A DNA stretch of 64,000 nt from Flavobacteriaceae bacterium (GTDB lineage: Bacteria > Bacteroidota > Bacteroidia > Flavobacteriales > Flavobacteriaceae): positions 1-64,000 of the forward strand of contig JANTFO010000002.1 of NCBI GenBank assembly GCA_024763365.1. Reading direction: 5' to 3'. Under the pieces are notes generated by a model that did not search any database, had not been told where the DNA came from, and saw nothing but the letters and a program-made list of their open reading frames with translations. The position numbers were made by a program, and so were the translations under genes. This document shows, in pieces, positions 24,758 to 59,748 of the stretch. Numbering within the stretch: the stretch's first letter is position 1; each line of letters opens with the position of its first letter.

Positions 24758-24822
24758 CAGCCATTTTCAACCTCTGACGAGAATCGTGCATGTTGATTAT
24801 GAAAATCTAATATTTTTGACAA

Positions 24823-49134: not shown

Positions 49135-49291
49135 ACCTGCATTAAAGAAAAGGGTTTTAAAACTCCATTCAAACAAGTTTAGGGCTAACTATATGATCAA
49201 GTATCCGTTCTAAGACGGCCCGCTTTAACATATAAGACTTACCCTTTTGAATAAAATTCTGTTGAGTTTAACAACCAAATTTAATGCAGGT
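49135..49291 (-). ncRNA. ssrS: Probable 6S RNA
   Basis: Closed by 12-bp perfect terminal stem ACCTGCATTAAA/TTTAATGCAGGT; nested internal helices AAACTC/GAGTTT and ATTCAAA/TTTGAAT, open central region, apical hairpin CCGT-cttaga-ACGG; ~157 nt; lies between zapA and rny. Confidence 0.65.
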
Positions 49292-59227: not shown

Positions 59228-59389
59228 AACCTAAGTATTTACATTACATTTAAGAATGGGAATAAATAAGCAGCATTCTCATTTTCAAGCCTTGCTTTCT
59301 ACAAATTTACAAAATAATTAATATAATTGTTAAATTTTACTCTTTAATTCAATCATTTCATCATGATATTTTATAATGTAAAAGAAAAA

Positions 59390-59413
59390 ACAGCATCCAA
59401 AACTAAATGCTGT
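59390..59413 (-). terminator. Intrinsic terminator closing the tRNA-Lys repeat cluster
   Basis: Minus strand ACAGCAT-ttagttttgg-ATGCTGTTTTTTC. Confidence 0.75.
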
Positions 59414-59420
59414 CTTTCTA

Positions 59421-59675
59421 AAAGTGACTTGGCCGGGTCTTCCCGATATCTCCGCCTCAGGCGGATCATCGGGACAGGCTTCTCTACTCAAATTAATTTC
59501 TCCACAAAAAAAAACAGAACTCAAAATCAATGAATTCTGTTTCCTAAAAGTGACTTGGCTGGGTCTTCCCGATATCTCCGTCTCAGGCGGATCATCGGGA
59601 CAGGCTTCTCGACCAACTTAATTTCTCCACAAAAAAAAACAGAACTCAAAATCAATGAATTCTGTTTCCTAAAAG
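59421..59675 (-). repeat. Two tandem ~126/125-bp units, each with tRNA-Lys 3' end, palindrome and terminator
   Basis: 'gtgacttggc[c/t]gggtct' occurs at 59424, 59550 and 59675 (the last is the real tRNA); the intervening sequences are almost identical. Confidence 0.9.
59631..59665 (-). terminator. Intrinsic terminator of tRNA-Lys
   Basis: Minus strand ACAGAATTC...GTTCTGT followed by T9. Confidence 0.8.
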
Positions 59676-59748
59676 TGACTTGGCTGGGTCTCGAACCCAG
59701 GACCACCTCCTTAAAAGGGAGGTGCTCTACCAACTGAGCTACCAAGTC
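59676..59748 (-). tRNA. tRNA-Lys (anticodon UUU)
   Basis: Minus strand GACTTGG TA GCTC AGTTGGTA GAGC A CCTCC CTTTTAA GGAGG TGGTC CTGGG TTCGAGA CCCAG CCAAGTC A: full cloverleaf, 73 nt, no encoded CCA. Confidence 0.96.

Follow-up and report, generated by a model that had tools for sequence, protein, structure and literature searches.

The window, a 64,000-nt stretch of a Flavobacteriaceae bacterium genome (contig JANTFO010000002.1, positions 1 to 64,000), carries on its minus strand an intact tRNA-Lys(UUU) gene with its terminator, followed by two tandem units that each hold a hairpin, a copy of the tRNA 3' end and a terminator. In the direction of the minus strand the features are:

59675–59748 (−), intact tRNA-Lys(UUU) (ARAGORN; Rfam RF00005, 72.7 bits)
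59631–59666 (−), proximal terminator, ACAGAATTC..GAGTTCTGT followed by T9, equal to the unit 1 terminator (sequence; repeat family D2, 99%)
59601–59617 (−), unit 1, remnant T-stem 5' strand GTTGGTC, invariant GAGAAG and CCTG (sequence; conserved in the 28-sequence alignment A3)
59567–59600 (−), unit 1 hairpin TCCCGATGATCCGCCTGAGACGGAGATATCGGGA, at the T-loop position (sequence; hairpin stem covaries in A3)
59551–59566 (−), unit 1 tail AGACCCAGCCAAGTCA, the exact last 16 nt of tRNA-Lys (sequence; tail search; R1 match)
59506–59541 (−), unit 1 terminator, identical to the tRNA-Lys gene's own (repeat family D2)
59441–59489 (−), unit 2, decayed T-stem strand (GAGTA), GAGAAGCCTG and hairpin TCCCGATGATCCGCCTGAGGCGGAGATATCGGGA (sequence; R1 match 59427–59493)
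59425–59440 (−), unit 2 tail AGACCCGGCCAAGTCA, the tRNA-Lys tail with one mismatch (sequence; tail search)
59381–59414 (−), distal terminator GACAGCATTTAGTTTTGGATGCTGTTTTTT, diverged with its hairpin kept (sequence)

The tails follow one another at 125 and 126 bp, and a repeat search of the locus recovered a 78-nt block (99%) and a 99-nt block (84%). Covariance model R1 matched unit 1 at 59553–59619 (E = 7.7e−9), and the hairpin of unit 2 alone spans 59474–59441. These results upheld the outline given in an earlier note on this DNA, namely a complete tRNA-Lys(UUU) with a T9 terminator (sequence, ARAGORN), a 125-bp unit holding the last 16 nt of the tRNA and the identical terminator (sequence, repeats), and a 126-bp second copy with a different terminator, to which we add the mismatch in its tail. 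The palindrome that the note had called perfect is present, but in unit 1 its arms differ (CTGAGACGG versus CTGAGGCGG), and the T-stem 5' strand and the invariant GAGAAG-YYTR linker, both upstream of the palindrome, were missing from that account of the unit.

Neither tRNA-Lys unit of the window contains a GIY-YIG nuclease ORF, and no recombinase gene or cargo lies between the tails, which are separated just by terminator, spacer and hairpin. At the locus Rfam matched the tRNA alone, the other, sub-gathering matches being chance, and rtT RNA (RF00391) had no match in the window at the gathering score or at E up to 5. Elsewhere in the window, a 6S-Flavo RNA (49160–49267, minus strand) and a Flavobacteria L19 leader (24768–24795, plus strand) scored above the Rfam gathering threshold. 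The source genome is a metagenome assembly of 84% completeness, in which arrays may be collapsed.

The T-loop element and its distribution

Alignment A3, composed of 28 non-identical sequences from Lys, Trp, Leu, His, Met and Asn tRNAs, defined a T-loop element with the order T-stem 5' strand, GAGAAG, YYTR, variable hairpin, A(A)G and exact tRNA tail. GAGAAG was invariant in 28/28 sequences, drawn from many genera and several tRNAs. The outer stem, formed by the T-stem strand with the tail, and the hairpin stem both covaried and tracked tRNA type. In A3, 86.6% of cells were paired, as against at most 62% in slid controls, and double changes were found in 40 cells compared with 13.4 in shuffles, a level reached in 0/500 shuffles. 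The YYTR linker occurred as CCTG, TTTA, TCTA and CTTG, with covariation of its first and last letters (A3 columns 17 and 20). For this type, we dropped a reading of the upstream strand as a new copy of the tail in inverted orientation; the strand is the T-stem 5' strand, adjusted for pairing. At L350, L355, L358, L328 and L307, a second palindrome of the CCTGCCTGCC..GGCAGGCAGG type is nested between GAGAA and GTTTAT of the element, and tRNA-Asn tails at L307, L199 and L313 carry an extra palindrome between T-stem and acceptor strand.

R1 gave 48 matches in ten genomes; the nine in this genome were all at tRNA 3' flanks, and units lying away from tRNAs, a prospect that the earlier note had raised, were not seen among them. 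All 30 fetched R1 loci lay 3' of a tRNA on the same strand. Across the family, R1 matched 65 of 201 Flavobacteriaceae genomes, and a scripted rule placed 19 of 21 new loci beside a tRNA, the remaining two being a contig end and a locus with tRNA-Thr just upstream. A pattern search for CGAGAAG-TCCCGAT in this genome likewise returned tRNA 3' flanks exclusively, so that by neither R1 nor this pattern was dispersal of units between genes encountered, and the palindrome search that the note had proposed found the CGAGAAG-hairpin core at tRNA-Trp, Leu, Asn and others.

Copies of tRNA ends are widespread in this genome. In a survey of its 33 tRNA genes, plus G171, 3'-tail copies were present downstream of 11 of the 33 (tandem intact Pro tRNAs left out), and these copies are not due to chance, since by our arithmetic a 500-nt flank should hold a 14-nt tRNA tail, one mismatch being allowed, only ~1e−4 times. 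Copies of the 5' half were found between promoter and tRNA at several tRNA genes, with the hairpin in the D loop.

Six genomes of the same genus, for which synteny or contig data were available, were compared at this locus, again as the note had suggested. G004 has two such units with another hairpin sequence, G001 has a decayed unit remnant, and G002, G003, G005 and G006 have, in synteny, one tRNA-Lys with one terminator and no unit. Occupied and empty tRNA-Lys alleles thus coexist within one genus, and this patchy presence indicated that the units are a patchy addition. Several contigs, both in G004 (C53, C55, C116, C174 and C177) and in G000 (C113, C15 and C18), terminate at a tRNA gene or next to one, as though arrays had broken the assembly.

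These data bear on the reading, offered in the earlier note, of a decayed tandem array in which tRNA bodies were lost. Intact tandem tRNA-Lys genes are indeed common in Flavobacteriaceae, but T-loop elements never hold acceptor-5', D or anticodon parts, the missing parts are always identical, the same GAGAAG and hairpin linker recurs at Lys, Trp, Leu, His, Met, Asn, Thr, Gln and other tRNAs, and same-genus relatives have a single tRNA-Lys, all of which makes such decay hardly credible.

Stacked att-like scars, another proposal of the note, came nearest of its three readings, in that repeated, site-specific events at tRNA genes which duplicate the tRNA end are borne out; an integrase origin is not, and the evidence favours elements that join a tRNA half to a hairpin and belong to a GIY-YIG nuclease family. 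Att sites typically show direct repeats of a tRNA 3' end, and integrative elements with a tRNA attB restore the tRNA gene by their own copy of one end, as the elements here would. However, we found no integrase or cargo between the repeats, in the window or in the Lys arrays of other genera. The Lys-specific tail pattern, detected in 23 of 400 genomes and 20 genera, often forms ORF-less tandem arrays of 73–190 bp units; hairpin and GAGAAG stand at every junction; and both 5' and 3' halves are used. Scars of tyrosine-recombinase elements at the tRNA-Lys 3' end are accordingly a very improbable source.

The third reading in the note was a small processed RNA that would use the tRNA tail. The conserved unit could have a function of its own that owes nothing to GIY-YIG genes: it might be a structured RNA, or it might serve as a decoy aimed at tRNA enzymes or at toxins that cut tRNAs, its copies having multiplied through ordinary tandem duplication. 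The invariant GAGAAG, the covariation of both stems and the Lys arrays without an ORF would suit such a role, and there is a precedent in the 178-bp repeats of E. coli tyrT, which lie in tandem downstream of a tRNA, each with its 3' end, and yield rtT RNA. The tyrT repeats share with our units the tandem repetition of a tRNA 3' end; they differ in involving one tRNA, no nuclease and no GAGAAG hairpin. Every unit here stands behind a terminator with no promoter identified, the 5'-side elements look like mirror images of the 3' ones, which suits DNA better than RNA, and the tandem copies are patchy among close relatives. We therefore regard an autonomous function as rather unlikely.

Nuclease-bearing units and their targets

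At tRNA-Phe in this genome, the hairpin-tail of the unit is separated from the tRNA terminator by a small GIY-YIG ORF, and the same architecture with a small GIY-YIG gene was found across Bacteroidota. Two layouts occurred in other genera. The 3'-type consists of tRNA, terminator, ORF, hairpin, exact tRNA 3' half and the same terminator, often repeated, and a last tail; the 5'-type consists of promoter, tRNA 5' half, hairpin, ORF and intact tRNA, the ORF end running into the next tRNA 5' end. Among 18 tRNA-linked ORFs, the catalytic residues Y6, Y17, R27, H31 and E63 were invariant or nearly so. The Phe ORF had no match in a phage collection at E 1e−3.

A profile built from these 18 ORFs, which favours the tRNA-linked subset by construction, matched 116 of 201 family and 152 of 297 phylum genomes at E ≤ 1e−15. 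A tRNA lay within 700 bp of the ORF at 102 of 113 Flavobacteriaceae loci, on the same strand in 102/102, and we estimate that a random gene would be so placed in about 2% of cases. An exact copy of a tRNA part of at least 13 nt was present at 80 loci, and at least two ORFs at 31. In the subset from a place-blind profile search, 80 of 90 loci had a tRNA within 700 bp; the other ten, two long arrays among them, had none in the stretch. Seven GIY-YIG ORFs lie in tandem at L334 (G203:C1:540500-545300) and eight at L310 (G216:C34), and neither fetched stretch contains a tRNA. The phylum search placed 24 of 27 loci likewise near a tRNA, as were most of those from outside the family, and a single-protein contig scan gave one locus, in Salinimicrobium catena, again at tRNA-Phe. 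An unselected Pfam census of 11 complete genomes found just 3 of ~24 small GIY-YIG genes near tRNAs, and because most lie away from tRNAs we restrict our claim to the tRNA-linked subset.

For each tRNA, the copied part started or ended at fixed nucleotides across genera:

Arg-tcg: copy of 1–22, then 23–35 (resumption at 23)
Val-tac: copy of 46–76
Asn, 5' side: copy of 1–14
Phe: copy of 62–74

A tree was built of 112 ORFs, drawn from 79 genera and labelled by tRNA plus side. It rests on few columns, many of its forks are weak, and adjacent pairs of tRNAs leave a few labels uncertain. The label of tRNA plus side changed 36 times on this tree, compared with 87.2 ± 2.1 in shuffles, and the genus label changed 105 times. 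The ORF phylogeny tracks tRNA identity, not genus. The fixed insertion nucleotides, the linkage of ORF with tRNA half and the clustering of the phylogeny by target can thus be added, as direct observations, to the unit anatomy and tRNA specificity described above.

Palindromes are another candidate source. REP palindromes tagged GTAG/CGTC are short palindromes of intergenic DNA that go with RAYT transposases (PMC3733652), and palindromes of this kind could have been inserted into partial tRNA copies from ordinary duplication, with no nuclease involved. The hairpin sequences here (TCCCGA..TCGGGA, CCTGCCTGCCGGCAGGCAGG) do recur and can nest in the element, as at L350, L355 and L358, and they resemble REPs in being short and intergenic. 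In contrast to REPs, they are bound to tRNA halves and not dispersed, with no GTAG/CGTC tag seen. Confinement of the CGAGAAG-TCCCGAT pattern and R1 matches to tRNA 3' flanks in this genome speaks against such an origin, and neither the fixed insertion nucleotides nor the enclosed ORFs are accounted for by chance duplication; we consider this origin improbable.

The ORF-less units could be connected to the nuclease-bearing ones in several ways. A GAGAAG element lies directly behind the ORF at tRNA-Asn in several genera. Among 201 genomes, nearly one per genus, the ORF was present in 54 of 65 with a T-loop element and in 62 of 136 others (Fisher p = 3e−7). The window's units also share junction anatomy and tRNA exclusiveness with ORF-bearing units. 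We infer that ORF-less T-loop units were made by, or derived from, nuclease-bearing ones. No ORF occurred in any tRNA-Lys array examined, other genera included, so these units may have arisen by ORF loss, may depend on action in trans or may be independent, and they may never have had an ORF. As a tentative refinement, the T-loop element (T-stem strand, GAGAAG-YYTR, hairpin and tail) could be non-autonomous and depend for its mobility on GIY-YIG nucleases that cut tRNA genes and act in trans; its covarying stem would then hold the spare tRNA half in a fold of its own, clear of the working tRNA.

A proposed homing account of the tRNA-Lys units

The units in the window are probably ORF-less members of a Bacteroidota-wide group of tRNA-gene-targeting, SegB-like homing elements that supply the displaced tRNA half. 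In T-even phages, SegB is a freestanding GIY-YIG homing endonuclease located at tRNA genes that cuts inside them at the motif RAWTSGAAC, whose complement resembles the T-loop, and drives tandem amplification through short homology of the tRNA 5' end with the segB 3' end (PMC13096335). Both systems place a small GIY-YIG nuclease beside tRNA genes. Unlike SegB, the elements here are chromosomal, Bacteroidota-wide and split into many tRNA-specific lineages, carry a tRNA half and leave a hairpin-marked half, and also occur as ORF-less arrays. As to what characterises a homing endonuclease, an encoded nuclease is absent from the window's two units and present in sister units of this genome and others, and a fixed insertion site with occupied and empty alleles was observed.

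The architecture, site specificity and spread of the elements are direct observations, to which the homing account would add cleavage by the predicted nucleases and mobility. A full element would encode an 80–110 aa GIY-YIG nuclease whose cut would fall in the D, anticodon or T arm of one tRNA gene, where the element would insert through repair of the break. It would bring the displaced half with it, the 3' half plus terminator in the 3'-type or the 5' half in the 5'-type, so that the tRNA would stay intact and the native displaced half would be left on the far side with a hairpin at the junction. The intact tRNA would again hold the target, and this regeneration would account for tandem arrays, by renewed cutting or unequal recombination. 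Applied to the window, the terminator of the intact tRNA-Lys and unit 1 would be element copies, as would the tRNA-Lys 3' half, regenerated by the element, and the unit 2 tail and distal terminator would be native. The terminators fit this account, since the proximal ones would travel with the element and the distal one would be native. In the displaced half, the junction hairpin may abolish the target, or it may keep that half self-folded, sparing the working tRNA; the covariation favours a pairing role. One point against homing is that the intact tRNA retains the presumed target, so an explanation of immunity is needed.

We found no published description of these elements in the open-licence literature on GIY-YIG, tRNA genes and Bacteroidetes or Flavobacteria. 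If the homing account is right, tRNA genes throughout the phylum would be home to a large family of minimal selfish elements, each insertion being paid for with a rebuilt tRNA, and the phage SegB story would extend to chromosomes. It would account for partial tRNA copies, tandem GIY-YIG genes and assemblies broken at tRNA genes, and would provide many tRNA-specific nucleases with testable specificity.
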